Below, piece after piece: positions 24,655-45,325 of a DNA stretch of 59,732 nt. Numbering within the stretch: position 1 is the stretch's first letter; every line of letters begins with the position of its first letter. This DNA is from Spirochaetes bacterium ADurb.Bin133 (GTDB taxonomy: Bacteria > Spirochaetota > GWE2-31-10 > MWDO01), in NCBI GenBank assembly GCA_002070605.1, contig MWDO01000011.1:1-59732 (forward strand), read 5' to 3'. The notes below the pieces were generated by a model. It saw only the letters and a program-made list of their open reading frames with translations. It had not been told where the DNA came from and made no database searches. Both the position numbers and the translations under genes were made by a program.

Positions 24655-24881
24655 CCCCGTCGGTTTTTTGGAGCGAGGAAACAAATTGACGCATATGCGA
24701 CGCAGCGCTCCTCGATAAAAAAACGACACATATGTGTCAAAACAAATTGACGCATATGCAACGCAGCGCTCCTCGATAAAAAAAATAACGCATATGTGTC
24801 AAAAAAATATTGACACATATGACGTTAAGAATAAAATTGACACATATGTTTTTCTATATCTCCCCAAAAAACCGACGGGTT
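24655..24881. repeat. MITE-like element 2, largest member with internal duplication
   Basis: The left end CCCCGTCGGTTTTTTGGAG and right end TCCCCAAAAAACCGACGGGT are good inverted repeats. Inside are six GACRCATATG-type motifs starting at 24688, 24725, 24749, 24787, 24812 and 24839, spaced alternately by about 25 and 38 bases. Two of them extend to the dyad CATATGTGTC. A block of about 60 bases (CATATG, GCGACGCAGCGCTCCTCG, A-run) is present twice. The 495-base gap between the exonuclease and valS holds this element, a palindrome and the valS promoter, but no gene. Confidence 0.85.
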
Positions 24882-27638: not shown

Positions 27639-27650
27639 AGCTCTATGATA

Positions 27651-27687
27651 TAAAAAAAACGACCGATTCTTTTAGAACGGTCGTTTT
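27651..27687. terminator. Bidirectional terminator between valS and a convergent lipoprotein gene
   Basis: The stem ACGACCG / CGGTCGT is flanked by an A-run on the left and a T-run on the right. It can therefore end valS on the plus strand and the gene at 27703 on the minus strand. Confidence 0.85.
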
Positions 27688-27702
27688 TTTAGTTCTGAAA
27701 TA

Positions 27703-28254
27703 TCAGTTATTCGTTTGTAGATTTATACCTACGTCTCCGTAAACGCTGTCAAGCGTCGTATCGGCGGTTAACGCAGTCGTTTCAGAGTTTATCGTAAAAT
27801 TATCCGGGTATTTTTGTTCGCTTAGCGTTATATCTTTATCCGTAGTAGAAGCCGTCTCCTCGTAAGCTTCAAAATATACCCACCTGGCTCCTAACGGTAT
27901 ACCCGACGCCGTAACGGTTGCAGTAGCGACTCCGTCTGATTCGGTATAAGAAAAATTCGACGGCTTATAAAACTTATTAGTAAAATCTGGAACGTTGTTT
28001 GCCGAATTTACTTTGTCGAAAGTCCCCGGCCCGCTTGTTACCGATACGTAATCAATATCCGCAAAAGTTTTTCCCTTTACCTGATCGATCGACTGATCTA
28101 AAATAATTTTTACGTTAAACGTTATTGTCGCGGTTTGTACAGTATCCCCCCCTCCCCCTCCGTCGTCGTAAGTCGCTTCGCCCGAACAGTTTAACGCTAT
28201 AATTACAAATAGGGATACAAATACAACAATTAGCGATAATATTCTCTTAGTCAT
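27703..28254 (-). CDS. Small lipoprotein of unknown function
   Basis: The 183-residue product has a lipoprotein signal (IVVFVSLFVIIALNCSG, lipidated C23), then a Gly/Asp-rich spacer and one beta-sandwich-like domain of about 140 residues. The closing half (GVATATVTASGIPLGARWVYFEAYEE) resembles the Ig-like N-terminal domains of the starch lipoproteins upstream. AAGGAG precedes the ATG. It is the last gene of the minus-strand lipoprotein block, separated from the isoamylase gene by a strong hairpin, and might be an accessory surface protein of that locus. Confidence 0.7.
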   Translation of the reverse strand: MTKRILSLIVVFVSLFVIIALNCSGEATYDDGGGGGDTVQTATITFNVKIILDQSIDQVKGKTFADIDYVSVTSGPGTFDKVNSANNVPDFTNKFYKPSNFSYTESDGVATATVTASGIPLGARWVYFEAYEETASTTDKDITLSEQKYPDNFTINSETTALTADTTLDSVYGDVGINLQTNN

Positions 28255-28330: not shown

Positions 28331-31300
28331 CTATTGAGCGACCTCTTGCAATACCACAATCGAATACGGATTAACTCCATAAGAGCCGGTTATCGTCGCT
28401 CCGGACGCGGCGGACCAATAGTTGTCGTTGGTTTCCGCCCAACTTGCCGTATCGATAATTCTTACCCATTTTTTACCAGCGTCTGCCGTCGGAACGGTAT
28501 AGTTAACCAGATTTGTATAAGTATTTATCAATAGCAAATAGTCGCTTCCGCCGGCGACGGAGCTTCCGTCTATTCTTATCCATACGCATCGGTTGTCGTC
28601 TTGAAGATCGCTTACTCCGTCTTCCTTCTTATAAGTATAAGTCATATCGTAACTGCTATGTTTCAAAGCCGAACTATTCTTTCGTAATTGAATTACGTTT
28701 CTCGCAAACTTAAATATAGTATTTGCGTTATCGGCGTTAGTATCGGTTCCAAAATTATTATGGTACGCCGCCGCATATCCTGTGGAAACGGTATTCGGAC
28801 TATCGCTTGCGATCATATTATAGTTATTGTACGTACATATACTATCGACGTTATACGGATTGTTGTTGCCGTTCTGAGTTCTGGCAAATTCGTCTCCCCA
28901 CACCGTCATCGGCACTCCTCTTGAGAACATCAATATCGTCCAGAGGTTTCTCAGTTGCTGTCTTCTCAAAACAGGATCGTTATTTGTATTCCAAGAGTCG
29001 TTGTCGTTCGAACCGCCGTCCGAAGGTCCAAACGGCCAACTCAACGCCGTATTTTGCTTTGAATCGTAACTTACTAAGTCCATCATCGTAAATCCGTCGT
29101 GAGCGACTACAAAGTTAACCGATTTTTGCGGTCCGCCCTGATCGTTAAATCCGGTATGAGTATTGCCCGAACTTCTATCCAAAGGTCCGTACGAGCCGTT
29201 GAACGCGTCCGTAAAGGAGGGATATCCGCTCGTTTTATTGCCGCCGCCTTTAATAAATTTTCTAACGGAGTCTCTATAAAAACCGTTCCACTCTCCCCAT
29301 CCCGCGGGGAAATTAGAGACTTGATAACCGCCCGGCCATTGGCAATCCCACGCCTCTGCGATCATCTCTACGTTATAAGTAGCGCCCATCGCGGCAATTT
29401 CCGTCAACAACTGACCGTTAGGATTGAAATGGTAATTCGGCGCGGCGTCTCTACCCAGAACGGGAGCAAGGTCGAATCTAAATCCGTCGACTCCCATCTC
29501 GGTTATCCAGTATTTTAAAGAGTCCTTAATAAGATCTCTCACTACGGCTTTGGAAACGTCCATATTGTTTCCGCAACCGGTCGTCTCCCAATATCTTCCC
29601 TTATCGGTCGATACAAGCGCGTAGTAATTGGCGTTATCCAATCCTGCAAAGCTCGTTATCTCCTTACATTTCGTAGTAAAATCCGGATTTTCTATCCAGT
29701 TTCCGCTTCCGACGGGGGACTCTATATGAGAAGGATCCCAGTTGCCGCCTTCGCCGGTATGATTGTAAACCACGTCGAGATATACTTCAAGCCCTTCCGC
29801 GTGGAAAGCGGCGCACATCTCTTTAAACTCTTTCGTAGGTCCGCCGAAAGTTTTGTCGTACGAGTATCTTCTGTCCGGCGCAAAATAACCGTAAGTCATA
29901 TAGCCCCAGTAATTGCCTCCGGGACTATCTGCAGGATTAATATCGTTAGCCGTCTCGTGAACGGGCAACAACTCTATCGTAGTATAGCCCAAAGCTTTTA
30001 AGTATTTCGCCATCTTACCGGCGGCTTTGTAAGTCCCTCTCTCCGCGTCGGTAAACCAGGTCCCCCATGAGGAAGTATTGATACCTACTCCGCTAAGTAT
30101 AGAAGGCAACGATATAGACGAACTATGTTGCGTCAAGCCCCTAACGTGCGCTTCGTATATGATGCCGTCTTTCTCGGCTATATTCGGTTTTGTACCAAAA
30201 CTTGTAGTATTATATACGGCGACCGATTTTGGAGCCCATTTGCCCGTATCGACGTTTCTTATGTCTATATTTACATTGTTCGTACAAGGTCCTCTATAGC
30301 CGTGCGGCGTCAAGTCTGTTAGCCCGCCGGTACCGTACATACCGCCGTTTTCGCCCGCCGCGGCCATCTCGGGAGTCTCTTTATCGTGCGATATCTCTTT
30401 TGCATACGGATCGTACAATACTTTATTGGGATTATACCTGTTGCCGGCGGCGTCTACGTCGCTCGTAAATCCCGACGCGCTATTGCCTCTCGTCCAATTG
30501 GAATCAAAACTCCAATTTGGTCCCCAAGCTCTAAACGCGTATAACGCGTAGTTTGGAACGCTATTTAACTCCGCTCTCCATACGCCGTCGCTTCCCTTAG
30601 CCATCCAATAATCGTATTGAGCGGTCTGTCCCGTTTTTTGAGAATAAATTTCTAACAACACCTTAGTAGCGTTTGCCGCAAATACTCCGATTCGAAGATT
30701 GCTCGGCGGTCCTGAAACATAGTTTGCGCCAAGTTCCCAAGTCGCAGTTCCCCAGTCTGCCATATTAACGGGGGAGTAACTTCCGGACGAAGGGTAATTC
30801 GAACCAAGAGCGCCTCCTCCCCCGGACGCTCCCAAATAAACTCGTACGGAGAAATTTGCCATCTCGTAAGTGGAATTAAAATTTATAAAATATCGCTCTC
30901 CGCTAACCAAGCTAACGGTTCTTGAGGGGCCCGTTCCGGTAAGCGACAATGGAGTAGTTAAATCGTTTTCATACATAGTTACCGAGCCGGAATATGTCTC
31001 CGACCACTCTAATTTAAATGTTCCCGTATCAAAAATATCTACGCCAAACAAATTTATTCCTGCGGCTAACGAAGAGGGATTCCACTCTTCGCCCGAAATA
31101 ATAGTTTCAGCGGTCGCAAATATTATTGAATTATCCTGTTGAGGTTGGGTAACGTTAAATTCTCCGGAAGTAACGGTAGAATCGGCATATCCCGACGCAG
31201 TCGAATAGGCTTTAACGGTATAAGTCCCAACCGCCAAGCTAAATGGCGAAGTATAAGGCGTTCGAGTTCCCGAAATCTTTGGATCTGATCCGTCCGTGGT

Positions 31301-32638
31301 ATAATAGATAGAAGCTCCGGACGTACCGCACTCAATAGTTATATTATCGTTTGTAGTAAGATTTCCCGACGCCGGCGTGAACGTCGGCGCGGAAGAGGCC
31401 AAATAAGATATCGTATAAGATTGACTCGCTGCGCCCGAAACGTTTTTTGCGCCGGCTTTTGCGATCGCTCTGATAACCTTAGTAGTTCCGTTGCCCGATA
31501 CGGCGATCGGAGCCGAATATTGCGTCGAACTTGTAGTAGGATTAGATCCGTCGGTAGTATAGTAGATTATCGCGCCCGCGTCCGCGCAACTGAGAACGAC
31601 GTTCTGATCCGAGTTATACGTTCCCCCAGTAGGATTCATCTGAGGCGTAGAGGTAACGCCGGCGTCGATAGTATAAAGGCGAGATCCAACTATGCTGCTT
31701 GTCAGCCCAGACTTAACCGCCGCTACTTTTAAGGTAGTCGTAGCGGATATAGCTACCGAAGTAGAATATGTTTTTTTTGTACCGGAAGTCGTAGGATTGC
31801 TCCCGTCGGTCGTATAATAAATAGTCGCTCCGGCCGTATCGCAAGACAAAGAGACATTAATAGTCCCCGAATAGGTCCCCGCTAAATGACTAAACTTAAC
31901 GGGAGTTGCCTTTTTTTGAGTATTAAGATTTTGCGTAGAAGAGGTTATTTTCGACGCTACGACATTCAAAGTATAGCTGTCTTCCAAAAACAAAACTTCA
32001 GTTCCGGTCGGCTGATAGTCGCTATCCAGACCCGCCGCGTATCCTCTGGCGGTAAAAGTCCAATTCCCCTGAGCAAGTCCCGAAAATATAAACGAGTTTG
32101 AAAAGGCGTTTGATTCCGCTACGACGTCCGCGAATCCCTGACCGCGCGACGCCGTTACTACTATTTTTTCTATATACCCGGGTTGACCGGATACTACCGG
32201 ATAGGTAGAATTTAAAGTCAATTTATAATTTCCGGCTTTTTTAAGAAGACCTATCGTAACGCTATTGCCGGATTCGGTAACGTTCGCCGACGCTACTCCC
32301 TGATATATCGTATTTGCATACGAGTCTTTACCGACGACGCTTATCGTCCACGTTCCGATTTTAAGACGCAACGAGACGCTGGTAGAAGCGGTAGACGCCG
32401 TAACAGAAGTCTCCCCCGGTTTCGTCGCTACAACGTCGTATTGCGCGACAGTCCACCCCCTGACGGTTGGAATATTTACCTCCAATAAACCGTATCCCTT
32501 CTCATAAGCGAAGTCTTGATCTTCGTTATCGTATTTTAACGAACTATGATTCGAACATCCAAAACTTACAACCAACGCTACGATTATAATCGCAAACGTA
32601 AACGTCTTTGAATATTCCTTGATTTTTTTCAGAATCAC
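28331..32638 (-). CDS. Surface lipoprotein isoamylase/pullulanase-type GH13 with chitobiase-C repeats
   Basis: The roughly 1435-residue exported lipoprotein (lipobox VSFGC) should debranch or cleave alpha-glucans such as starch or glycogen. Domains in order: two related N-terminal beta domains (about 45-240), three CHB_HEX_C-type repeats (about 245-500, each with IYYTTDGSxP), a PPC-like beta domain (about 505-600), a CBM48-like module (about 630-740) and an isoamylase-type GH13 barrel (about 825-1340). The barrel has VYNHTGEGG, nucleophile Asp in GFRFDLAP (about 1056), acid/base Glu in MIAEAWDC (about 1095) and Asp in VVAHDGF (about 1181). I place the start at GTG 32638 because GGAGG lies inside the longer frame that begins at 32653. 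Confidence 0.92.
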   Translation of the reverse strand: MILKKIKEYSKTFTFAIIIVALVVSFGCSNHSSLKYDNEDQDFAYEKGYGLLEVNIPTVRGWTVAQYDVVATKPGETSVTASTASTSVSLRLKIGTWTISVVGKDSYANTIYQGVASANVTESGNSVTIGLLKKAGNYKLTLNSTYPVVSGQPGYIEKIVVTASRGQGFADVVAESNAFSNSFIFSGLAQGNWTFTARGYAAGLDSDYQPTGTEVLFLEDSYTLNVVASKITSSTQNLNTQKKATPVKFSHLAGTYSGTINVSLSCDTAGATIYYTTDGSNPTTSGTKKTYSTSVAISATTTLKVAAVKSGLTSSIVGSRLYTIDAGVTSTPQMNPTGGTYNSDQNVVLSCADAGAIIYYTTDGSNPTTSSTQYSAPIAVSGNGTTKVIRAIAKAGAKNVSGAASQSYTISYLASSAPTFTPASGNLTTNDNITIECGTSGASIYYTTDGSDPKISGTRTPYTSPFSLAVGTYTVKAYSTASGYADSTVTSGEFNVTQPQQDNSIIFATAETIISGEEWNPSSLAAGINLFGVDIFDTGTFKLEWSETYSGSVTMYENDLTTPLSLTGTGPSRTVSLVSGERYFINFNSTYEMANFSVRVYLGASGGGGALGSNYPSSGSYSPVNMADWGTATWELGANYVSGPPSNLRIGVFAANATKVLLEIYSQKTGQTAQYDYWMAKGSDGVWRAELNSVPNYALYAFRAWGPNWSFDSNWTRGNSASGFTSDVDAAGNRYNPNKVLYDPYAKEISHDKETPEMAAAGENGGMYGTGGLTDLTPHGYRGPCTNNVNIDIRNVDTGKWAPKSVAVYNTTSFGTKPNIAEKDGIIYEAHVRGLTQHSSSISLPSILSGVGINTSSWGTWFTDAERGTYKAAGKMAKYLKALGYTTIELLPVHETANDINPADSPGGNYWGYMTYGYFAPDRRYSYDKTFGGPTKEFKEMCAAFHAEGLEVYLDVVYNHTGEGGNWDPSHIESPVGSGNWIENPDFTTKCKEITSFAGLDNANYYALVSTDKGRYWETTGCGNNMDVSKAVVRDLIKDSLKYWITEMGVDGFRFDLAPVLGRDAAPNYHFNPNGQLLTEIAAMGATYNVEMIAEAWDCQWPGGYQVSNFPAGWGEWNGFYRDSVRKFIKGGGNKTSGYPSFTDAFNGSYGPLDRSSGNTHTGFNDQGGPQKSVNFVVAHDGFTMMDLVSYDSKQNTALSWPFGPSDGGSNDNDSWNTNNDPVLRRQQLRNLWTILMFSRGVPMTVWGDEFARTQNGNNNPYNVDSICTYNNYNMIASDSPNTVSTGYAAAYHNNFGTDTNADNANTIFKFARNVIQLRKNSSALKHSSYDMTYTYKKEDGVSDLQDDNRCVWIRIDGSSVAGGSDYLLLINTYTNLVNYTVPTADAGKKWVRIIDTASWAETNDNYWSAASGATITGSYGVNPYSIVVLQEVAQ

Positions 32639-32749
32639 AATATACCTCCTCAAAATATAAATCCATTTATTAATAAAATGTTCTTAATAAAAACATTTTT
32701 TTTCTCTATCAATAACAAGGGAGCGCCGCCCCCTCGCATAAAAACATCG

Positions 32750-35700
32750 CTATTGTTCAACCCAAACCGAATAGCCTTTAGCTCCTACGCTAAATTCGCC
32801 CCATTTATCAGCTTGAGTAGTCGTAGTAGCTCCTACGTTATCTCCGGCTATCTGAACAAAAGTCCCGTTCGCTTGGTAAGTATCAATCCACTGAGACCCC
32901 GTTACGCCCGGTTTGGCAATAACAAAAACCATACTCTTTCCCGCGTAATCTCCGGTTGTAGCGCCCTCTCTAGCGTAAGTTAGAATATTTGCATTATTGG
33001 GCTGGGCGCTTGTCGGAGTATGCCCCGCTCCGTGTCCGTATTTATGCCTAATATCTATCAACTGTTTGATTCCGGTATTCAGCTCGGTAAAATGATTGTT
33101 CGTATATTCCGTAACGTAGTTGCCTTTGTATATATCTCTGTAATAAACGCAAGGCGTTCCGCTCATGTGTAATAATATAAACGTATACGCTTGAAGTTTA
33201 AAATTGAACGGTATATAAGAAGCGAGCGCTTGACTCGGAACTGTGTCGTGATTATCGACGAATGTTATAGCGTATTCCGGTTTACAACCTAACAAAGCGT
33301 TATCCGCCAGATTAGCATCGAGAAGCATAGTCATATCGCCGGGGTCTGAATTTTCGCCGGCTATTTTTTGGAAAGTATAATGCAGCGGAACGTCGAACAA
33401 CTGCATAGAATTCTCTATACCGTTATATTGGCTTCCGCTCGTATATGTTTGACTTCCGCCGGTCGGAGCTGAATAAGCGTAAGCGTTCAATCTGGCGGAC
33501 CAGCCGTCCCAGTTCTCGCCGAATATTAACGGAGCTCTTCCGCTTTTAGCTGTAACGTAATTTTTCATCTCAACAGCCCAGTCGCGAACAAAAGTATTGT
33601 CCATGTGCCTAATAGCGTCAACTCTATAACCGTCAAGATTGAGAACGTCGGTAAGCCATTTTGACCAGGTTATCATTTCAGCTTTAACTTCCGCATTTTG
33701 AAGGTCTAAGTCCGCTCCAAGTATTATGTCCGATTGAAAATGATTTTCTCCCGCAAAAATATTTACGTTATCAAGCGTATGCCCGCTAAACAGATAGTAT
33801 TTCCCGTAACTTTCCATTCCGTCGAAATGTTGAGGTCCCCAGACAAAACTTGAGTAGGTCGTTCCTCTCGGATTGGCGTCGCCCGGTCTCATAAAATTAA
33901 AATTAACATACGCTTCAACCGACGTAATCCCTGGTGGAATCGACTGGCTAACGCTTACCGTCGTCGAACTCGCCGCGCCGAGCATGTGGTTCATAACAAT
34001 ATCCGCAATCGCTTTTATCCCGTTGGCATGAAAAGCGTCTATCGCTTCGATCAACTCCCCTCTCGTCCCGTACTTAGTCCTTACGCCCCCCTCTTGATCA
34101 AACTCGCCGAGATCGTAATGATCGTAAACTGCGTAGCCGACGTTAAAATCGGCGCCCGGACTAAAAGCTTTTCCGGATGGAGGCATCCATATCGCCGTAA
34201 ATCCGTCGTTGCGATATTGAGCGGCGTTAGTCTTATAAAGCTGATACAAGTTTGATTCGGGTTCTTGATGCGCGCTCCCCGGATCGCCTATATACCAATA
34301 GAATCCCTGTAATATTACTTCGTTAGTATAAGGATAATTTGTTCTGTTAAGATTTTGAGGTATAGCCCAACCGGTTCCGCCGTTTGTCGTAGTAGTAGTC
34401 GACGTCGGTATTGTCGTCGTGGTGGTAGTCGGAGCCGCGCCGCCTTGATAAACTCTTATTTTAAATCCCGTATGAATATAACTTGAATTTACTTTTATAA
34501 AGTAATTTACCGGCAGATCCGCGTTGCCCGTTAAAGTCGCCGTTTTATAATTTCCGCTTCCCGGCGCAGATATAGCCGTTTTCATATCATTCTCATACAA
34601 TTCGACGGTCCCGACAAAACCTGAAGAGCGCTCTATTGTAAATACGTTATCGCCCGCGATACCGTTTGCAAAACCAAACCAGCTAATGCCTGCTTCAAGG
34701 TCTTTAGTAGTCCAAATATCGTCGGATTGTTCGGTTATGATTATAAGCTCGGTCGTCCTAAACGCTATTGAATTGTCGGCGTCTATCGGATTAATAGTAA
34801 AAGTAGCCGTAGTTACTAAGGAATTTCTATATCCGACTGCGGTCGCGAGCGCTTTAACCGTTTTAGCCCCCTCCGTTAACGAGAAAGGTCCCGTATAAAG
34901 AGTAGAGGAGGTCGTAGGCGTCGAACCGTCGATCGTGTAGTAGATTGAAGCTCCCGACGTCCCCGATTCAAGCGAAAACAGCGCGTCGGTATCGTATGTA
35001 CCGGACGTCGGAGTAATAACCGGAGCCGCCGCTTGAGGATACGTTATCGTATAAACTTGAGTAACAATATCCGACGCGCTTTTACCGTCGGCTTTCGCCA
35101 TGGCTTTGATAGTTTTGACCGTACCGTCGCCGTTAACGGCTATCGGAGCCGAATATACAGACGAAGACGTAGTCGGAGTCGAGCCGTTAGTCGTATAGTA
35201 TATAACGGCGCCGGAGTCCGCGCATGTTATCGTTACGCCAAAGCCGGATGAAAACGATCCGCCGGTAGGCGAGAATTGCGGCGTAGACGTTGCGGAAGCG
35301 TTTATAGTATAAGTTCTCGCCCCGACGACGCTGTTAGCCATACCGGTTTTAATTGCAACGGCTTTAACGGTTTTTCCGGCGTCTATAGTAATCGGCTCGG
35401 AATAAACCGTTCCGGTCGTAGCCGTAGGGTCTACGCCGTTTGTAGTGTATCTTATCGTTGCCGCCGAAGTATCGCAACTTAACGATAGCGAAAAGGAAGA
35501 AGAATACGAGCCGGTCGAATGACTAAATTTTACCGGAGTAGCTTTCGCCTGACTTGAAATAGTATAAGCCGAAGTAACGTATCTGCTGGCTAAAACTTCT
35601 CCGACAAAGTTTCCCGAAACGTAAGTATCGTATTGCCCCGAAATAGTCGTATAATCGCTATTTAGCTTCGAGCTTTTTCCCTCGACTAAGAAGTTCCAAT

Positions 35701-36262
35701 TGCCTTGAGCGAGCCCCGTAAATACGACTGCGCTTGCAAAATTATCGACTTCCTGTATGACGGAAGGAAATCCGTCGTTTCTTGAGGCTGTAACGGTAAT
35801 TTTCTCAATATAACCGGGGCTTCCGCTTAAAACGTTATATCCGGTAAAATTCGAAATGTTGATCTTATAATTACCGGCTCTTTTTAAAAGTCCGACGGTC
35901 ATACTAGTCGTCGTTTCGGTAACGGTTGCCGTAGAAGCGCCTTGATAAATAACGTTGTCGTAGCTGTCCGTTCCTTCAACATTAATATTCCATGTTCCGA
36001 TTTTCAGACGAATATTTACTTCGGTACTGGAAGTTTCAACTACTACCGGAGTCTCTCCGGACTTTGTAGCTGTTATGGTATAATTTTCAATATTCCAACC
36101 TCTATAAGTCGGTATTGATACGATTAAAGTTCCGTATCCGTCGTTATCCGTTCTCAATTCTTCTTCGGAAGAACCGGAAAAAAAGCCGCTTATCCCCGAA
36201 CATGCGCATAGCGTTAAAAGCGCAAGCGCGATCAAAAACGACCTTCTTATCAAATTAGCCAT
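32750..36262 (-). CDS. Surface lipoprotein alpha-amylase (GH13) with chitobiase-C repeats
   Basis: The 1170-residue lipoprotein (lipobox LCAC, C21) repeats the isoamylase architecture: paired N-terminal beta domains (about 40-235), three CHB_HEX_C repeats (about 240-495) and a PPC-like domain (about 498-608). A Thr-rich linker (TTTTTTIPTSTTTTT) leads to a GH13 amylase barrel. Barrel motifs are IADIVMNHML, nucleophile Asp in GYRVDAIRH (about 882), acid/base Glu in IFGENWDG (about 916) and Asp in FVDNHDT (about 1006). QGFYWYIGDP at the barrel start is typical of secreted alpha-amylases. The ATG at 36262 follows GAGGAGAATG. It should hydrolyse internal alpha-1,4 bonds of starch at the cell surface. 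Confidence 0.93.
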   Translation of the reverse strand: MANLIRRSFLIALALLTLCACSGISGFFSGSSEEELRTDNDGYGTLIVSIPTYRGWNIENYTITATKSGETPVVVETSSTEVNIRLKIGTWNINVEGTDSYDNVIYQGASTATVTETTTSMTVGLLKRAGNYKINISNFTGYNVLSGSPGYIEKITVTASRNDGFPSVIQEVDNFASAVVFTGLAQGNWNFLVEGKSSKLNSDYTTISGQYDTYVSGNFVGEVLASRYVTSAYTISSQAKATPVKFSHSTGSYSSSFSLSLSCDTSAATIRYTTNGVDPTATTGTVYSEPITIDAGKTVKAVAIKTGMANSVVGARTYTINASATSTPQFSPTGGSFSSGFGVTITCADSGAVIYYTTNGSTPTTSSSVYSAPIAVNGDGTVKTIKAMAKADGKSASDIVTQVYTITYPQAAAPVITPTSGTYDTDALFSLESGTSGASIYYTIDGSTPTTSSTLYTGPFSLTEGAKTVKALATAVGYRNSLVTTATFTINPIDADNSIAFRTTELIIITEQSDDIWTTKDLEAGISWFGFANGIAGDNVFTIERSSGFVGTVELYENDMKTAISAPGSGNYKTATLTGNADLPVNYFIKVNSSYIHTGFKIRVYQGGAAPTTTTTTIPTSTTTTTNGGTGWAIPQNLNRTNYPYTNEVILQGFYWYIGDPGSAHQEPESNLYQLYKTNAAQYRNDGFTAIWMPPSGKAFSPGADFNVGYAVYDHYDLGEFDQEGGVRTKYGTRGELIEAIDAFHANGIKAIADIVMNHMLGAASSTTVSVSQSIPPGITSVEAYVNFNFMRPGDANPRGTTYSSFVWGPQHFDGMESYGKYYLFSGHTLDNVNIFAGENHFQSDIILGADLDLQNAEVKAEMITWSKWLTDVLNLDGYRVDAIRHMDNTFVRDWAVEMKNYVTAKSGRAPLIFGENWDGWSARLNAYAYSAPTGGSQTYTSGSQYNGIENSMQLFDVPLHYTFQKIAGENSDPGDMTMLLDANLADNALLGCKPEYAITFVDNHDTVPSQALASYIPFNFKLQAYTFILLHMSGTPCVYYRDIYKGNYVTEYTNNHFTELNTGIKQLIDIRHKYGHGAGHTPTSAQPNNANILTYAREGATTGDYAGKSMVFVIAKPGVTGSQWIDTYQANGTFVQIAGDNVGATTTTQADKWGEFSVGAKGYSVWVEQ

Positions 36263-36343
36263 TACATTCTCCTCAAAAAAAATCATTACGCCTAATAACG
36301 ACGGGTTTCAACTCGCCGTTCGGTAATTGTCGTAATACTCAAC

Positions 36344-36463
36344 AACAAGGGGGCAAAACCCCTTGTTCAATAATAACTCATAAACAACAAAAACAAGGGG
36401 GCAAAACCCCTTGTTCAGTAATTAACATAAACAACAGAAACAAGGGGTTGAAGCCCCCTTGTT
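36344..36463. repeat. Three tandem ACAAGGGG hairpins between starch lipoprotein genes
   Basis: Three units with a period of about 48 bases each contain a 9-base stem AACAAGGGG / CCCCTTGTT: 36344-36367, 36392-36415 and 36438-36463. The first two have the loop GCAAAA; the third is in the opposite orientation (loop TTGAAG). The spacers share ATAAACAACAAAAA. They occupy the 218-base gap between the CBM20-like gene and the amylase gene. A single weaker related hairpin (AACAAGGGAGCG then CCGCCCCCT) lies at 32714-32734. Confidence 0.85.
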
Positions 36464-36480
36464 TCATTATAAAATTTCTT

Positions 36481-38559
36481 TTACTGCCATACAACAGGAT
36501 TCTGTACCCATTCATAACCCGGCGTATGAGAATGATTGTCTGCGCCGCTTTCCCATATATTTCCGTTAGTTTGATTTGCCGGTCCCTTTGTCGCTTTAAA
36601 CTCAAAACTCTGATCAAGATCGTAGATTTCACATACCCAGACGTTTCCATCCGTCCAAGAAGCTTCATGTCCAACGTCCCATCTTAATGGAAGAGTATCT
36701 CCCACTATGTATACTGAATTTCCAGATCCAACGTTTGTATGATATTTGAACACAGTCTTATACCCTACTCTGAGCAGACAATTACCCGTTATAGCTGATC
36801 CTGTCGAGCTTGTTACTTTTATAAAGTATCTTGCGTTACCCAAAGTAAGCGCTTTTCTATCTGTACCGTAACCGACGTCGACAGCGTTAATAGAATTTGA
36901 CACCGTCGTCGTATCGTTCTCGTATAGAGTTACTTTTACGTTTGCGGTAGTCCCAAGAGTTCCGTTATCAGCCCATTCGAGGTATATCATCTTGCCCTCT
37001 TCGCCCTGGAATGCGAGCCACTTTTCGGATTCGTTCGAGAAACTAACGGTCTGGAACCCCGCCGATATTACGACGTTCTTAGCTAGTTTAGCAAAATTTA
37101 CCCCAACCGTTTTGGCTATGGCTATGACATATTGCGAACTTGTCGCTATCGACGAATCGTCGTAGCCCGCCTTAACCGCGAACGCCTTGATGGTATAATT
37201 GCCGTCGGTCGAAAGCGATATAGTACCGCCGCTTGTTATAGACAACGAACTCGTAGTCGGAGTATCTCCGTTAGTCGTATAGTATATAGTCGAACCGGCG
37301 GTTGAAGATATAGTTACAGTTTGAGCGCTATTGTAAGTTCCTCCGTTCGGACTGAAAGTAGGAGTAGCGCAATCCGGATAATTTATGACGTACGTCCTCG
37401 AAACAATGGAAGTATCGTTAAAACCGCCCTTTCTGGCAAAAGCCTTAACGGTCGTAGTTCCCTTTGTAACGGTAAACGGCGCGGTATATACCGAAGAAGA
37501 GCCCGTAGGATCGTCTCCGTTAGTCGTATAGTAAATGGTCGCCCCGCCTTCGCTGCATGTTATCGTTACCGTTTTATCGACGTTGTAAGTACCGGCTGCC
37601 GGAGTTATATTGACGGTCATGCTTCCGTAGGTAATGTTATAAACCGAAGTAGTTACTCTACTGTTAGAAAGCCCGGATTTATACGCATAAGCTTTTATCG
37701 TATGAGTTCCGTTGCCGGATACGCTAAAAGGAGCCGAATAAACGGTTCCACTGGCAATAGGATCGGATCCGTTAGTCGTATACTTGATACTTGCGCCGAC
37801 CGTCTGAGTACTAAGAGTTACCGTTTGATCGGAGCTGTAATTGCCGCCCGCCGGCGAGAAAGCAACGTCTAATACTTTTTTTTCGTCTAAAGAGGTCGAA
37901 GCTACGCTCAATAGTTGCGAATTAACGATCGTTTGAGCCGAAAGAGTCTTCGAATAATATACGTCATTCGAACTATCCAGACCTTGCAACGTTACGTTCC
38001 AATTTCCTTCCAATAAATCAAAGAGATATACCGTCCCGGAGGTTTCGGTAGAAGCGATCTCTACCGTAACGGTTCTATTTGTAAAACCGGTTCTCGCAGC
38101 GGTAGCTCTCATTTTTGTTACAAAGCCGGCGACCCCCCAACTCATCGGCAGTTTCGCGGCTCTCGTCTTGGCCGATAGACCGATCGTAGCCGAATTTGCG
38201 CCTTCTACTACCGTTACGCTTTTATATCCGTAATATACTTCCAGACCGCTCGTGTTTTTAGCGGTAACTTCAATGAGCCAAGTCCCGATTTGAAGCGTTA
38301 AATTTGCCGAGGTTGTATCGACGGTTTGATCGACGGTCGCATACCCGTCTCTAGTCGCTTTTACATAATACGAATTCGGCGTCATACCGGTTCTTGAAAT
38401 ATTAGCGATCAAGTCGAGACTTAACGAACCGAATTTTTCCTCAACCGCCAAAACGTCGGTTTCGGCGCCTTTATCGATTACTACGAGATTACCATTAGAA
38501 CAACCCAACGTAACTAACGCCGTAATAATCATAACTAAAATACCAATTTTCCTAAACAT
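36481..38559 (-). CDS. Surface lipoprotein with chitobiase-C repeats and a C-terminal CBM20-like starch-binding module
   Basis: The 692-residue lipoprotein (lipobox VTLGC, C20) has the same paired N-terminal beta domains (about 35-225), three CHB_HEX_C repeats (about 228-480) and a PPC-like domain (about 490-600). The C-terminal 90 residues (VYIVGDTLPLRWDVGHEA, SWTDGNVWVCEIYDL, FEFKATKG, WESGADNHSHT) resemble CBM20-type starch-binding domains, with the conserved Trp residues present. No catalytic module is visible, so it is probably a glucan-binding partner of the two amylases. AGGAGG precedes the ATG. Confidence 0.85.
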   Translation of the reverse strand: MFRKIGILVMIITALVTLGCSNGNLVVIDKGAETDVLAVEEKFGSLSLDLIANISRTGMTPNSYYVKATRDGYATVDQTVDTTSANLTLQIGTWLIEVTAKNTSGLEVYYGYKSVTVVEGANSATIGLSAKTRAAKLPMSWGVAGFVTKMRATAARTGFTNRTVTVEIASTETSGTVYLFDLLEGNWNVTLQGLDSSNDVYYSKTLSAQTIVNSQLLSVASTSLDEKKVLDVAFSPAGGNYSSDQTVTLSTQTVGASIKYTTNGSDPIASGTVYSAPFSVSGNGTHTIKAYAYKSGLSNSRVTTSVYNITYGSMTVNITPAAGTYNVDKTVTITCSEGGATIYYTTNGDDPTGSSSVYTAPFTVTKGTTTVKAFARKGGFNDTSIVSRTYVINYPDCATPTFSPNGGTYNSAQTVTISSTAGSTIYYTTNGDTPTTSSLSITSGGTISLSTDGNYTIKAFAVKAGYDDSSIATSSQYVIAIAKTVGVNFAKLAKNVVISAGFQTVSFSNESEKWLAFQGEEGKMIYLEWADNGTLGTTANVKVTLYENDTTTVSNSINAVDVGYGTDRKALTLGNARYFIKVTSSTGSAITGNCLLRVGYKTVFKYHTNVGSGNSVYIVGDTLPLRWDVGHEASWTDGNVWVCEIYDLDQSFEFKATKGPANQTNGNIWESGADNHSHTPGYEWVQNPVVWQ

Positions 38560-38630
38560 TCATACCTCCTAAAAAAAATAAAAATATCTATAAAAATCTC
38601 TTATTTTCCACAAATAGTTATTGCCGTATT

Positions 38631-40625
38631 TTACCAAGGCCAACCATCCCAAGGATCTCCGTTACCCTGATTGTTTGTCGTCCCTACCGTCCCCGTCCTA
38701 TTATTTGCCATCCATCTTTTATCTGGAGACCATCCTTCTCTGTAATGATAGCATTTAAACGCAAATGTTCCCGAGGCGAATGTATCGTCCCATGTTATCC
38801 ATGTCCAGTTGTTTTCATAGCTCCATTTCATCATAAAATTATTAGCCCAGTTTCCAAATGGACCCCCGGAACCTGCAACCCATAAATCGCCTGTTCCGGT
38901 ATTGTAACCTTCTACAATAATAACAGTCTTTTTAAATTCCTTAACGGAAATAGAGCTATCAGGATAACCTGATTTTACTGCAATAGCTTTAACAGTTTTA
39001 GTTGAACTTATTGAAAATGTTGAAGAATATAATGTAGAAGATGTACTCGGCGTTGATCCGTCAAGCGTATAATAAATCGACGATCCGCTTGTAGAACAAG
39101 TAATTTCAATAGTAATACTATCAGGTTGATTACTATGCCCATTACCTGTCAATGGCGATGTTGTAGTAGAAATAACGGGAGTAGCAACTGCCGTTGTATT
39201 TATTGTATAGGTATTAGAAGCAACACTGCTGTTATTATAACCGCTTTTTACAGCAATAGCCTTGACTGTTGCCGAAGAGCTTAGCGTAAAAGTCCCAGAA
39301 TATAGAGTAGAACCTGTGTCCGGGGTATTCCCATTAGTCGTATAATATATCGAAGCGCCCGATGTTCCGCAAGATATCGATATAGTCTGAGCTGAAGTAT
39401 ATGTTCCGCTAGATGGAGTAATTACAGGAGTAGCGCAGTCGGGATAATTTATCGTTATCGAGCCGCTCGAACCGACCGCGCTGTTATCGTAGCCGGACTT
39501 GACCGCTATCGCTTTTACCGTATACGTTCCGCTTGCAGACAGCGTTATACTAGAACCGTTCGATATAGAGGGAGAACCGGTCGTCGGAGTAAAGCCGTTC
39601 GTCGTATAATGGATCGTCGCGCCGGCCGTAGCGGACGTTATAGTTACGTTAGTCGCGCTGGTAAAACTGCCCGAGTTCGGAGAGAACGTCGGCGCGGCGC
39701 AGTCGGGGTAGTTTATCGTATAGGCGTTTGTAACGATCGAACTACTAGTTAGCCCAGATTTGATAGTTATCGCCTTGATCGTCATGCTCGTCCCGGAGCC
39801 CGCGACGCTTATCGGCGCCGTATATAGAGTAGAGCCCGACGTCGGATTGTTTCCGTTAGTAGTGTAATATATAGACGCGCCCGACGTCGTCGTACTAAGC
39901 GAGATCGACTGATCGGAAGTATAAGTTCCGCCCGCTACCGAAAATACCGGCGCGGTCGCTATCTTTTGATCTAAAGCCGAACTGTTCGTAAAAAGACCGG
40001 ACTCGGCTACCGTAGCGGTAAAACTTTTTGAGTAGTATACCGCGTTTGAAGCGTTCATAGCTTCTACCAAAACGTTCCACGAACCGGGCAGAGCGTCGAA
40101 AAGATATACCGCGCCGCTCAAACTCGAGGTATCAACCGAGATTTGATTGGAGATAGTAGTATATCCGCTACGGGTCGCGGTTATTTTTATTTTAGAGACT
40201 ATACCCGCGATGTCGTAACTGTAATTACATTTGATCCCGCCCGTCTTATACGCGACCCCGATAACCACGGAGCTTGTCCCGGAGTTTACCGTTACGCTCT
40301 TATTGCCGTCGCAGACGACGACCGAACTTGAGTTCTTGCCGACGACGGATATATTCCACTCGCCGTAAGTCAAAGTCAACGAAGTCGTCGTATTCGACGT
40401 ATTTACGACAACGTCGTCCTCTCCGGACTTTGTCGCGGTAATAGTATATGAAGAAACTGCCGTATTACGATAAGCCGATTCGATTTTAACGCTTATAGAT
40501 CTTTTAGGTAGTTCGGCGGAAACGTCGTCGGAATTCAAAAAGGAACACCCGCCGCAGATAATAGACGCGGAAAGCAATAGAGACGCTAATAGAGATGTAA
40601 GACAAAAACTTATCAACCGCCTCAC
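38631..40625 (-). CDS. Surface lipoprotein with four chitobiase-C repeats and a Trp-rich C-terminal module
   Basis: The 664-residue lipoprotein (signal ending in CGGC, C27) carries the shared paired N-terminal beta domains (about 38-225) and four CHB_HEX_C repeats (about 228-560). It then has a short C-terminal module of about 90 residues unusually rich in Trp and Gly (DLWVAGSGGPFGNW, NNWTWITWDDTF, YREGWSPDKRWM, GDPWDGWPW). The module looks like a carbohydrate-binding domain, but I cannot name its family. The frame starts at GTG 40625 with AAAGG upstream. It is the first gene of the four-gene starch lipoprotein run and lies downstream of a promoter at 40676-40703. Confidence 0.82.
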   Translation of the reverse strand: MRRLISFCLTSLLASLLLSASIICGGCSFLNSDDVSAELPKRSISVKIESAYRNTAVSSYTITATKSGEDDVVVNTSNTTTSLTLTYGEWNISVVGKNSSSVVVCDGNKSVTVNSGTSSVVIGVAYKTGGIKCNYSYDIAGIVSKIKITATRSGYTTISNQISVDTSSLSGAVYLFDALPGSWNVLVEAMNASNAVYYSKSFTATVAESGLFTNSSALDQKIATAPVFSVAGGTYTSDQSISLSTTTSGASIYYTTNGNNPTSGSTLYTAPISVAGSGTSMTIKAITIKSGLTSSSIVTNAYTINYPDCAAPTFSPNSGSFTSATNVTITSATAGATIHYTTNGFTPTTGSPSISNGSSITLSASGTYTVKAIAVKSGYDNSAVGSSGSITINYPDCATPVITPSSGTYTSAQTISISCGTSGASIYYTTNGNTPDTGSTLYSGTFTLSSSATVKAIAVKSGYNNSSVASNTYTINTTAVATPVISTTTSPLTGNGHSNQPDSITIEITCSTSGSSIYYTLDGSTPSTSSTLYSSTFSISSTKTVKAIAVKSGYPDSSISVKEFKKTVIIVEGYNTGTGDLWVAGSGGPFGNWANNFMMKWSYENNWTWITWDDTFASGTFAFKCYHYREGWSPDKRWMANNRTGTVGTTNNQGNGDPWDGWPW

Positions 40626-42248: not shown

Positions 42249-43136
42249 CTACTGCTGTATCGCGATCCAGAATAACATAAACGGAGCTATAGGAACAACG
42301 TCCGCGCTATCCCAATAACCTTTAGCGTCGTCGCCGTTAGACATATACGGCATATATATTGTAATCTTTTCCTGCTCTACCTTTACGCATTTAAACCAAT
42401 CCGAAGCGTAATCGGCGCTGTTGTCCGGATAGATCATCGTCCCACCGTCGTAAGTAAAATACGACAATTGTCGCGTTTCATATCTGTCGTCCGTAGTATC
42501 CTGTTTTTTCGCCGCGTCGAAGGTCGCCAAACAATTTCCCTTCGGCAAACTATCCACTATCGAGTAATCGTTCGTCGCGCCCCACTGCTTCGGTCTTTGC
42601 GTGGCGAATATCGCTATTCTCGCGCCGGGCTTTAATACCAAGTAGTTAGAATTAACGGTATTTAATTGGACTACTACCGCTTTATTAATTCCGTCCCAGG
42701 TAACGTCGAACTTATTCGGTTCTATCGTCGTATCCTCGACCCTTTTATATATTTTTTGTTCAAACGCCAGAGGCATAATAATGTTATTGTCCACCGTCGC
42801 GTCTTCGGTAGGCTGTATATTATTACTGTAAAAATCTGAATCGTAGTAAACAATCTGAGAATACTCAAACATACTCCAAGTATCCGGATTTATATCGGAC
42901 GTCCCATCCCAAACTCTTCCTGTCAAATTCCCGTTATCCGTCGAAGCTTTTATCTGAATATCCGGTCTCCAATTGACGAATCTTATACCGGGCAATCCCC
43001 AGAATTCGGCGACCGTGGAACTGTCGCTATCTACTTCTATATAATTTATCAGATAATTTATCCGTTCTACTTGACACGACAAAAAAACAACCGCATATAC
43101 CGCCGCTACTATTGCAGATACAATAATTTTTCTCAT
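42249..43136 (-). CDS. Lipoprotein of unknown function
   Basis: The 295-residue product has a lipoprotein signal (VSAIVAAVYAVVFLSC, C21) and a long beta-rich domain with Trp and Asp residues but no motif I recognise. GAGGG precedes the ATG at 43136. A CGACAATTGTCG palindrome lies in its coding sequence (42462-42473, read CGA CAA TTG TCG), and element 3 begins seven bases beyond its stop codon. It is divergent from the seven-repeat lipoprotein gene and may belong to the same surface programme. Confidence 0.75.
   Translation of the reverse strand: MRKIIVSAIVAAVYAVVFLSCQVERINYLINYIEVDSDSSTVAEFWGLPGIRFVNWRPDIQIKASTDNGNLTGRVWDGTSDINPDTWSMFEYSQIVYYDSDFYSNNIQPTEDATVDNNIIMPLAFEQKIYKRVEDTTIEPNKFDVTWDGINKAVVVQLNTVNSNYLVLKPGARIAIFATQRPKQWGATNDYSIVDSLPKGNCLATFDAAKKQDTTDDRYETRQLSYFTYDGGTMIYPDNSADYASDWFKCVKVEQEKITIYMPYMSNGDDAKGYWDSADVVPIAPFMLFWIAIQQ
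42462..42473. repeat. CGACAATTGTCG palindrome inside a lipoprotein gene
   Basis: A perfect 12-base dyad is read on the coding (minus) strand as ACG CGA CAA TTG TCG TAT (TRQLSY), a different frame from the copy at 7103. Confidence 0.7.
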
Positions 43137-43244
43137 AACATCACCCTCTACGCTTGTTAATATTTTAACATTATACGCCATTTATACATCATTTCTATTT
43201 TTTTTTCAAATAAATTTAAAAAATATAAAAAAATAAAAAAATAT

Positions 43245-43393: not shown

Positions 43394-45325
43394 ATGTCTA
43401 GAAAAAACTTAATTTGCTTGGTATCAGTTTTATTGTTGGTTTTTCAATTGTCCGTTGTTTTAACTACTTCCGGTTGCATATACGTAGATAGGGACGAATA
43501 TAAGGACGAATACGTATACGTTCAAAGAGAAAAAGCCGACGCTCCGACGTTTTCCCCCTTAAGCGGCGAGTTTACCGAAGATCAAAAAGTAGAAATGTAT
43601 TATACTCCAAAAGATTCGTCGTCAAGTTCGTCCTACAAAATCGCATATACAAAAGACGGAACTAATCCCGTCGTAGAAAACGGCGTTATCAAAAACGGTT
43701 ACCTTTATACCGGATCCTTCATGGTTTCTTCATTTACCGTACTAAAAGCCGTCGCGTTTAACGAAACTTTTACGTCGGATATCGGAAGAGCGGCGTTCTC
43801 TTTTAAAGTCTCCTCGCCTCTGTTTACGCCCGCGACCGGCAAATACGGTCTCGATCAAATAGTTTCTATAACAAACAGTACGAATTTTTCCAAAATCTAT
43901 TATACGACGGACGGAAGTTCGCCGTCGTCGTCTTCGAGTCTATACGTTACGCCGCTGACCATATCAAAACCGGTAACAATCAAGGCGATAGCGTACCATT
44001 ACGGCTGGTCTTATTCCGAAGAAATCACGGCTAATTTTTCATTCCAACCCGATTCGCCGCATTTCTACCCAACCGGCGGCGTATACGATTCTACGTTCGA
44101 CATAATTATATCCCCAAAAATAGTAGGGAGCGGGGTTTATTTTACAAACGACGACTCGACGCCCGACGCGACGAAGACTAAATTTACCGCGCCCGTTCCG
44201 ATAACCTCGTCAAAAACGATCAAAACCGTAGCCATCAGGGAAGGTATGGAAACTTCCAATGTTAATATAGCGAATTATGTATTGAAAACGGCCGCTCCCG
44301 TAATCGAACCCGCCGGCGGGACTTACGGCGCTTCTCAAACAATAACGATATTCTGCAAGACTGGCGACGCGGAGATAAGATATACGACAGACGGAACCGA
44401 TCCGACGGCAGATTCCGCTCTATATACCGGAGCGATAACCGTAGATACGACGGATACGCAGATAAAAGCTATCGCTTTAAAAAGCGGTTTTGAAAATTCG
44501 AATATCGTTTCGCAAAAATACTTTATAGTAGACGGAACTATCGCGCCGCCGGCTCCGGAGTTTTCCAAGCCGTCCGGAACATACGAAAATTCTATAGAGA
44601 TAGAGTTTCTTAACGATTACGCGAACGAAGGGTATTATATACGATACTCTATCGACGGAACGGCGCCGACTAGCGAAACGGGCAAAATTTACGAAAGCGA
44701 TTCGATATACGTAGACAAAACTACTACAATCAAAGCTATATCGTACCGCGGCGGTATGATTCAATCCGAAGTAAAAACGGCGACGTTTACTATTACCGGA
44801 ACGGTCGCCGAGCCTACGCTGTTTATACAACCGGAGGAGTCGGAATTTGACGAATACCAATCCGCAATTACAATCGATATAGCCTGCGATACAACCTACT
44901 CCGTAATCAGATATACGACCGACGGAACCGAACCGGACGCCTCCTCTTACATCGTTGACGGACTTATTTCCATATCCGGCTCGTCCGGCGCGGTAGACCT
45001 GAGAGTAAAAGCCTTCCGAAAGGGCTGGACCCCGTCGGAGACCATAGAGAGAAATATAACGTTTAAACTTCCAGATCCGGTATTCAATCCCGAAGGGGGA
45101 AGCGAGATTTCTAAATCGGTATTGCTGACCATATCTCAACCCGTGTTGGGAGCGAAAACTTACTATACTATAAACGGCGACGATCCTAAAATATCCGGCG
45201 CATTATACGAGTCGCCTATATTGATCAATTCGACAACGACGGTAAAAGCCTATTCAAAACTCGCCGGTTGGACTGATTCGGAAACGGTCGTAAACGTATA
45301 TACCTTTACCGCCCCCTTACCGTGA
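43394..45325 (+). CDS. Lipoprotein made of seven chitobiase-C-type repeats
   Basis: The 643-residue lipoprotein (lipobox TTSGC, C28) consists after a short charged spacer entirely of about seven CHB_HEX_C-type repeats of 75-90 residues. Each begins like APVIEPAGGTYGASQTI and contains a strand like IRYTTDGTDP followed by IKAIAxKxGxxxS. There is no catalytic or recognised binding module at the end. It uses the same repeat as the four starch lipoproteins but lacks their N-terminal domains, and it is transcribed in the opposite direction. A spacer, scaffold or adhesion role is plausible. CGAGGA precedes the ATG. Confidence 0.85.
   Translation: MSRKNLICLVSVLLLVFQLSVVLTTSGCIYVDRDEYKDEYVYVQREKADAPTFSPLSGEFTEDQKVEMYYTPKDSSSSSSYKIAYTKDGTNPVVENGVIKNGYLYTGSFMVSSFTVLKAVAFNETFTSDIGRAAFSFKVSSPLFTPATGKYGLDQIVSITNSTNFSKIYYTTDGSSPSSSSSLYVTPLTISKPVTIKAIAYHYGWSYSEEITANFSFQPDSPHFYPTGGVYDSTFDIIISPKIVGSGVYFTNDDSTPDATKTKFTAPVPITSSKTIKTVAIREGMETSNVNIANYVLKTAAPVIEPAGGTYGASQTITIFCKTGDAEIRYTTDGTDPTADSALYTGAITVDTTDTQIKAIALKSGFENSNIVSQKYFIVDGTIAPPAPEFSKPSGTYENSIEIEFLNDYANEGYYIRYSIDGTAPTSETGKIYESDSIYVDKTTTIKAISYRGGMIQSEVKTATFTITGTVAEPTLFIQPEESEFDEYQSAITIDIACDTTYSVIRYTTDGTEPDASSYIVDGLISISGSSGAVDLRVKAFRKGWTPSETIERNITFKLPDPVFNPEGGSEISKSVLLTISQPVLGAKTYYTINGDDPKISGALYESPILINSTTTVKAYSKLAGWTDSETVVNVYTFTAPLP

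Follow-up and report, generated by a model that had tools for sequence, protein, structure and literature searches.

A spirochaetal locus of putative starch-active lipoproteins with one stalk and different end-modules

Described systems and the spirochaetal locus

To our knowledge, starch capture at the surface of diderm bacteria is understood almost solely through SusCD systems. Here we consider a stretch of 59,732 nucleotides (the window, which is contig MWDO01000011.1, or C11, in full) from Spirochaetes bacterium ADurb.Bin133, in which four consecutive genes, LP4, LP3, LP2 and LP1, encode putative lipoproteins that share an N-terminal chassis of two beta-sandwich domains (D1 and D2) followed by CHB_HEX_C repeats, and that end in different starch-related modules. 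The locus is probably part of a spirochaetal starch-foraging system of lipid-anchored modular proteins, in which one stalk has been re-tipped with different ends. The host assembly (GCA_002070605.1; 2.99 Mb, 103 contigs, 95.6% complete) carries a spirochaete-type FlaA family found in 21 of 21 genomes (this one and 20 relatives) and in 0 of 14 controls, a distribution that points to Spirochaetota as its phylum.

The closest described designs come from Bacteroidota, where DUF1735 and BACON spacers are N-terminal, lipid-anchored and Ig-like and precede many different C-termini (PMC11216935). The Sus-like polysaccharide utilization loci of that phylum likewise have interchangeable C-termini, whether carbohydrate-active enzymes (CAZymes) or binding modules, and a single cluster can hold SusE/F-like binders together with SusG-like surface enzymes (PMC11216935). 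In the spirochaetal locus GH13 and CBM20-type proteins are adjacent, and if displayed at the cell surface they would resemble SusE/F plus SusG in function. The chassis, a predicted tandem beta-sandwich (AlphaFold 2, Foldseek) ahead of variable C-termini and behind a non-canonical lipobox, would be a counterpart of the DUF1735 and BACON spacers. The initial annotation of this DNA had known of no described equivalent, a view that gives way before the conceptually equivalent DUF1735, BACON and SusE/F spacers (PMC11216935), though no kinship in sequence was found: the chassis matched none of the DUF1735, BACON and SusE/F Pfam models, in searches to E 10 with the LP2 and LP4 chassis and to E 1 with LP1 to LP4. 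The spirochaetal set also departs from Bacteroidota Sus in having no SusC in the genome, in its CHB_HEX_C stalk repeats, in carrying CBM20, CBM26 and CBM74 rather than SusE/F-type modules, and in belonging to another phylum.

Another point of reference is the amylosome of Ruminococcus bromii (Sas6, Sas20 and the Amy proteins), which also brings together GH13 enzymes and starch binders. Sas6 combines CBM26 with CBM74, and a chassis protein with these two modules from a relative in the same genus (genome G001) parallels it. Unlike R. bromii, the spirochaete is diderm, and its anchoring would be by a lipoprotein stalk, not a scaffold; cohesin and dockerin had no Pfam match in the scanned chassis proteins, the rest of the genome not having been searched for them. 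CBM74 has been reported as almost exclusive to degraders of resistant starch (PMC10826348). A literature search returned no account of a spirochaetal starch lipoprotein system or of a spirochaetal CBM74, which does not prove absence.

One chassis and four end-modules

The four open reading frames (ORFs) follow one another in the same orientation on the minus strand at 28331-40625, with gaps of 71 bp (LP4-LP3), 194 bp (LP3-LP2) and 96 bp (LP2-LP1), and would be transcribed in the order LP4, LP3, LP2, LP1 if read through. Their parts are as follows.

38631..40625, minus strand: LP4, putative lipoprotein with chassis (D1+D2), four CHB_HEX_C repeats and a 100-aa Trp-rich C-terminal module (CBM20-like)
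39954..40505, minus strand: LP4 chassis, two related beta-sandwich domains (profile match E 6.6e-60)
38634..38933, minus strand: LP4 C-terminal module, CBM20-like (hhalign to the phylum CBM20 profile)
36481..38559, minus strand: LP3, putative lipoprotein with chassis, three CHB_HEX_C repeats, a domain at the PPC position and a C-terminal CBM20
37864..38433, minus strand: LP3 chassis (profile match E 2.5e-60)
36520..36756, minus strand: LP3 CBM20 (Pfam CBM_20 E 3.3e-4, 21.9 bits, just under the 23.3-bit cut-off)
32750..36286, minus strand: LP2, putative lipoprotein with chassis, three CHB_HEX_C repeats, PPC-position domain and GH13 alpha-amylase
35531..36139, minus strand: LP2 chassis (profile match E 7.2e-87)
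34421..34789, minus strand: LP2 PPC-position domain, also in LP1 and less surely in LP3
32753..34330, minus strand: LP2 alpha-amylase catalytic part (motifs GYRVD, IFGEN, FVDNHD)
28331..32653, minus strand: LP1, putative lipoprotein with chassis, three CHB_HEX_C repeats, PPC-position domain and CBM48-isoamylase
31898..32497, minus strand: LP1 chassis (profile match E 3.5e-82)
28334..30736, minus strand: LP1 isoamylase, debranching enzyme of GlgX/isoamylase type (motifs GFRFD, MIAEA, VVAHD)

The likely starts of LP1 and LP2 fall slightly inside their ORFs, LP1 at a GTG at 32638, eight bases past AGGAGG, and LP2 at an ATG at 36262 preceded by GAGGAG.

The initial annotation had staked its proposal of a shared chassis on homology of the N-terminal domains. 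The N-terminal 200 residues match in all pairs of LP1 to LP4 (blastp E 1e-12 to 1e-69), a homology that, judged from the sequences, is far beyond chance. D1 is 29-60% identical between window members (shuffle Z 13-41); D2 is well matched within LP1-LP2 (Z 34) and within LP3-LP4 (Z 29) and weakly across these two pairs (Z just 2-9). Profile comparison also relates D1 to D2, as had been proposed (hhalign 92.6%, E 4.4e-7), and the AlphaFold 2 model of the LP2 chassis shows two beta-sandwich domains (mean pLDDT 82.6). In the PDB, Foldseek matched numerous proteins with tandem Ig/FN3/pilin-like domains, all with low TM-scores, which makes the class of fold clear but points to no specific relative; a search of the PDB with the chassis sequence profile gave nothing significant (best E 0.055). 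The predicted CHB_HEX_C repeats were all recovered over the Pfam cut-off, three each in LP1, LP2 and LP3 and four in LP4.

Other parts of the proposed architecture needed revision. Three of the proteins had been credited with a PPC-like domain. A domain of ~110 aa is indeed common to LP1 and LP2 (Z 25) and probably to LP3 (Z 6.5-7.4), but the PPC identity (PF04151) was rejected, with no Pfam match even at E 10 in any of the three segments. The proteins had also been held to differ in their C-terminal module alone; the end-modules do differ, but LP4, unlike LP1 to LP3, also lacks the PPC-position domain and has the fourth repeat.

The ends of LP1 and LP2 are enzymes, as first read. All three GH13 motifs are intact in both, and both catalytic parts align to solved GH13 enzymes over most of the catalytic length: that of LP1 is closest to the isoamylase 1bf2 from Pseudomonas (E 4.5e-114) and that of LP2 to 4uzu (E 2.3e-68) and 1hvx, of the Bacillus liquefying type. 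The CBM48 of LP1 is a sub-threshold Pfam match. Compared with these solved enzymes, LP1 and LP2 are fused behind a chassis and stalk and are apparently lipid-anchored. A scan of genome contigs with LP2 turned up only ordinary amylases from other phyla.

LP3 and LP4 are both probably starch-binding and non-catalytic. The LP3 end-module aligns to a profile of the CBM20s of the phylum (hhalign 94.9%; 0 of 100 shuffles as good), in agreement with its first description as CBM20-like. The LP4 end-module, at first left unassigned, can now be called probably CBM20-like: it aligns to the same profile (hhalign 61%, E 8e-5; 0 of 100 shuffles), and a weak phmmer match in contig C34 of genome G021 falls on the same domain that the Pfam CBM20 model independently picks there. 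It had no Pfam match even at E 10, and neither the LP3 nor the LP4 end-module had a meaningful sequence match in the PDB.

The chassis recurs elsewhere in the genome and in relatives. Contig C46 encodes three further chassis proteins, of 1152, 1371 and 1295 aa. They carry CBM26 and GH13, and one is pullulanase-like and has CBM48. Next to them is a CHB_HEX_C/CBM26/GH13 protein of 1940 aa that has no chassis. With a full chassis defined as a D1+D2 match at E below 1e-18, a search of 296 Spirochaetota genomes found it confined to the host's own family: 16 proteins in four genomes, seven from the host and nine from relatives of the same genus (G001) and family (G002 and G003). Starch modules (GH13, CBM20 or CBM20-like, CBM26, CBM48 or CBM74) are present in all 15 proteins that could be read into their end-modules, which bears out the starch role assigned at the outset; the sixteenth, G001_C172, is truncated where its contig stops and is a chassis orthologue of a GH13 protein. 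The host's amylolytic load is high, with 28 GH13 matches in its genome.

CBM74 occurs on the chassis in two related genera, as the C-terminal module (330 aa) of two proteins, one from G001 and one from G002; the match to the solved CBM74 of R. bromii Sas6 has E 1.5e-58 and spans 360 columns. The G001 protein (L051) also carries CBM26 and is non-catalytic. These modules have no Pfam match (E 10) and were detected via solved structures only:

L051:1406-4105: chassis protein with CBM74, Spirochaetota relative G001
L052:74-1765: chassis protein with CBM74, Spirochaetota relative G002

Weaker matches, mostly to D1 alone (E 1e-9 to 1e-6), are more widespread among the 296 genomes. The D1-like carriers examined (L064, L056, L061, L063), from the host's order and phylum, are lipoproteins that bear LamG, FGE-sulfatase or clostripain domains and are not amylolytic; because D1 heads these proteins too, it seems, taken by itself, to be a stalk domain in general use among spirochaetal lipoproteins.

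Duplication of the stalk and exchange of end-modules, already suggested by the first reading of the locus, are supported as the origin of the set by these comparisons, since chassis and catalytic modules differ in their closest relatives. The chassis tree unites LP3 with LP4 in a clade supported at 99/99 and groups the C46-type proteins with their own orthologues. It puts LP1 close to LP2 without resolving the two, which are mutual best chassis matches at 50%. The LP1 isoamylase is 48-50% identical to that of long isoamylase-amylase proteins (C16 in the host, G001_C33 and G002_C101); the LP2 amylase belongs to a different subfamily and has no close relative among these. In G002_C101 the isoamylase-amylase pair sits on the chassis and the G001 and host homologues have other N-termini, which is direct evidence for the movement of end-modules between stalks. 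The host C16 fusion gene (L012:9322-15999) has an in-frame TGA and its sister-species homologue (L058:439-7959) is uninterrupted; the host gene may have become a pseudogene recently, or the difference may come from variation between strains or from an error in the assembly.

A starch-foraging system and its alternatives

The proposed system would work as follows. The shared stalk, consisting of a lipid anchor, two beta-sandwich domains and three or four CHB_HEX_C spacers, would project the end-module from the cell; LP4 and LP3 would hold starch through their CBM20-type modules, while LP2 would cleave alpha-1,4 bonds and LP1 alpha-1,6 branches. The released maltodextrins would then cross the outer membrane by a non-SusC route and be imported by an ABC system of the MalE/MalF/MalG type. 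Such an importer is, by homology, encoded outside the window on contig C64 (MalE, E 5e-78, and two ABC permease genes). The lipidation and outer-membrane surface location of LP1 to LP4, and starch as their substrate, are inferred.

The initial annotation had compared the locus with a Sus system lacking SusC and SusD. On the side of SusC the comparison stands: the assembly has just one TonB plug, in a BtuB-like receptor of 670 aa on another contig, so that no SusC-like transporter was found. For SusD, the Pfam scan found none among the window proteins, and the SusD profile was not run on the genome.

Several observations weigh against this proposal. The lipobox first reported is canonical in none of LP1 to LP4, being of a relaxed type in LP1 to LP3 and weakest, and doubtful, in LP4. 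Support for the CBM20-like nature of the LP4 end-module is moderate, and its AlphaFold model (pLDDT 41) was not used. Co-transcription of LP1 to LP4 is presumed, but the 194-bp LP3-LP2 gap holds strong hairpins, so the four genes may not be one simple operon. In the genome of the sister species (86% complete, 490 contigs) no orthologue of LP2, LP3 or LP4 was seen, so this particular locus may be accessory. Finally, no regulator or transporter gene adjoins LP1 to LP4; little can be read into the lack of a transporter in the window, since the MalE/MalF/MalG-type importer is encoded elsewhere.

A lipid anchor alone does not tell the leaflet, and it is conceivable, if rather unlikely, that the lipoproteins LP1 to LP4 face the periplasm or sit in the inner membrane and act there on maltodextrins after import or on glycogen after its release, with the repeats as periplasmic spacers and nothing displayed. 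The GlgX/isoamylase type of LP1 would fit such a role, and this lineage has no known surface-export signal; but the CBM20, CBM26 and CBM74 modules found on the chassis bind, from what is known of these families, polymeric or granular starch that is not expected in the periplasm, and a stalk of 200 chassis residues and three or four repeats would be long for that compartment. Somewhat less probable again is a general-purpose spirochaetal lipoprotein stalk for which starch modules are one payload among many, clustered by chance, with no dedicated system. The weak D1-like domains on LamG, FGE-sulfatase and clostripain lipoproteins are consistent with it, as is the wide spread of CHB_HEX_C repeats (59 matches in the host genome), but the complete D1+D2 is limited to one family and starch-linked in every readable case across four genomes, and four chassis genes are consecutive here with three more clustered on C46.

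Horizontal acquisition of a divergent Bacteroidota Sus/DUF1735 system seems very improbable. The logic is the same, with a lipoprotein signal, an Ig-like spacer and a variable CAZyme or CBM C-terminus (PMC11216935), but the chassis matches neither the DUF1735, BACON and SusE/F models in Pfam nor anything by sequence in the PDB, the fold search returned generic tandem beta-sandwiches only, and no SusC was found. A broader version of the surface starch-foraging proposal is more tentative, and we would put it slightly below an even chance: that a family of Spirochaetota evolved, independently of Sus and the amylosome, a surface system that handles particulate (granular) starch without a scaffold, with non-SusCD uptake and one dedicated two-domain chassis reused for most of its starch enzymes and binders, including Sas6-like CBM26-CBM74 proteins.

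Should the locus work as proposed, it would bring SusCD-independent surface starch capture to another phylum, provide in the chassis a sequence-defined marker that predicts starch proteins, and place CBM74 in spirochaetes. It is also a clear case, found in nature, of a single stalk carrying catalytic and binding modules of unrelated kinds.

A hairpin array and neighbouring genes

The LP3-LP2 gap contains the one element among the terminator-like matches in the window that was treated as a real feature:

36340..36465, minus strand: three tandem strong RNA hairpins with a 48-bp period, between LP3 and LP2

The array folds stably (fold z -7.9; 0 of 200 shuffles equally stable) and divides the binding-protein genes (LP4, LP3) from the enzyme genes (LP2, LP1); similar single hairpins occur at few other sites in the genome. 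In the malE-malF gap of E. coli, a hairpin element raises MalE over MalF. By analogy, the array may favour the binding proteins over the enzymes in amount; a terminator is an equally good reading. A near-identical GGGG/CCCC hairpin was observed at C35:13961-13985, where a sugar-binding-protein gene meets one for a MalF/UgpA-like permease, which suggests a stabilising or attenuating element at the 3' end; the array is likewise a candidate for mRNA processing, stabilisation or attenuation. The window had no match to a known RNA in Rfam, and sigma-70-like matches there were little above chance and were not used. A 61-bp tandem repeat (2.3 copies) with ACACATATGTGT palindromes, without an Rfam match, lies at 24679-24849, just upstream of a valyl-tRNA-synthetase-like gene.

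The locus is flanked by valS-like and OmpA-like genes. Three further genes, for putative lipoproteins, lie close to the LP set:

27703..28254, minus strand: small putative lipoprotein, 183 aa, 76 bp downstream of LP1, apparently the last gene before a terminator-like hairpin at ~27650-27690
42249..43181, minus strand: "partner" putative lipoprotein of a family ending FxLFWIxIQQ, with no Pfam match
43394..45325, plus strand: putative lipoprotein made up almost entirely of seven CHB_HEX_C repeats, without chassis or end-module

The small lipoprotein has no family match in Pfam, and its membership of the LP set is uncertain. Kinship to the chassis was tested for it, for the partner and for LP5, and was not found. 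The lipoprotein at 43394-45325 is a possible associate of the set. The partner family adjoins a CHB_HEX_C-repeat protein at five loci (window 42249-43181/43394-45325; L009:10001-17014; L011:8135-11626; L138:346-8823; L139:7523-10439). At two of these the neighbour carries GH13, and for that reason the family may associate with amylolytic stalks.

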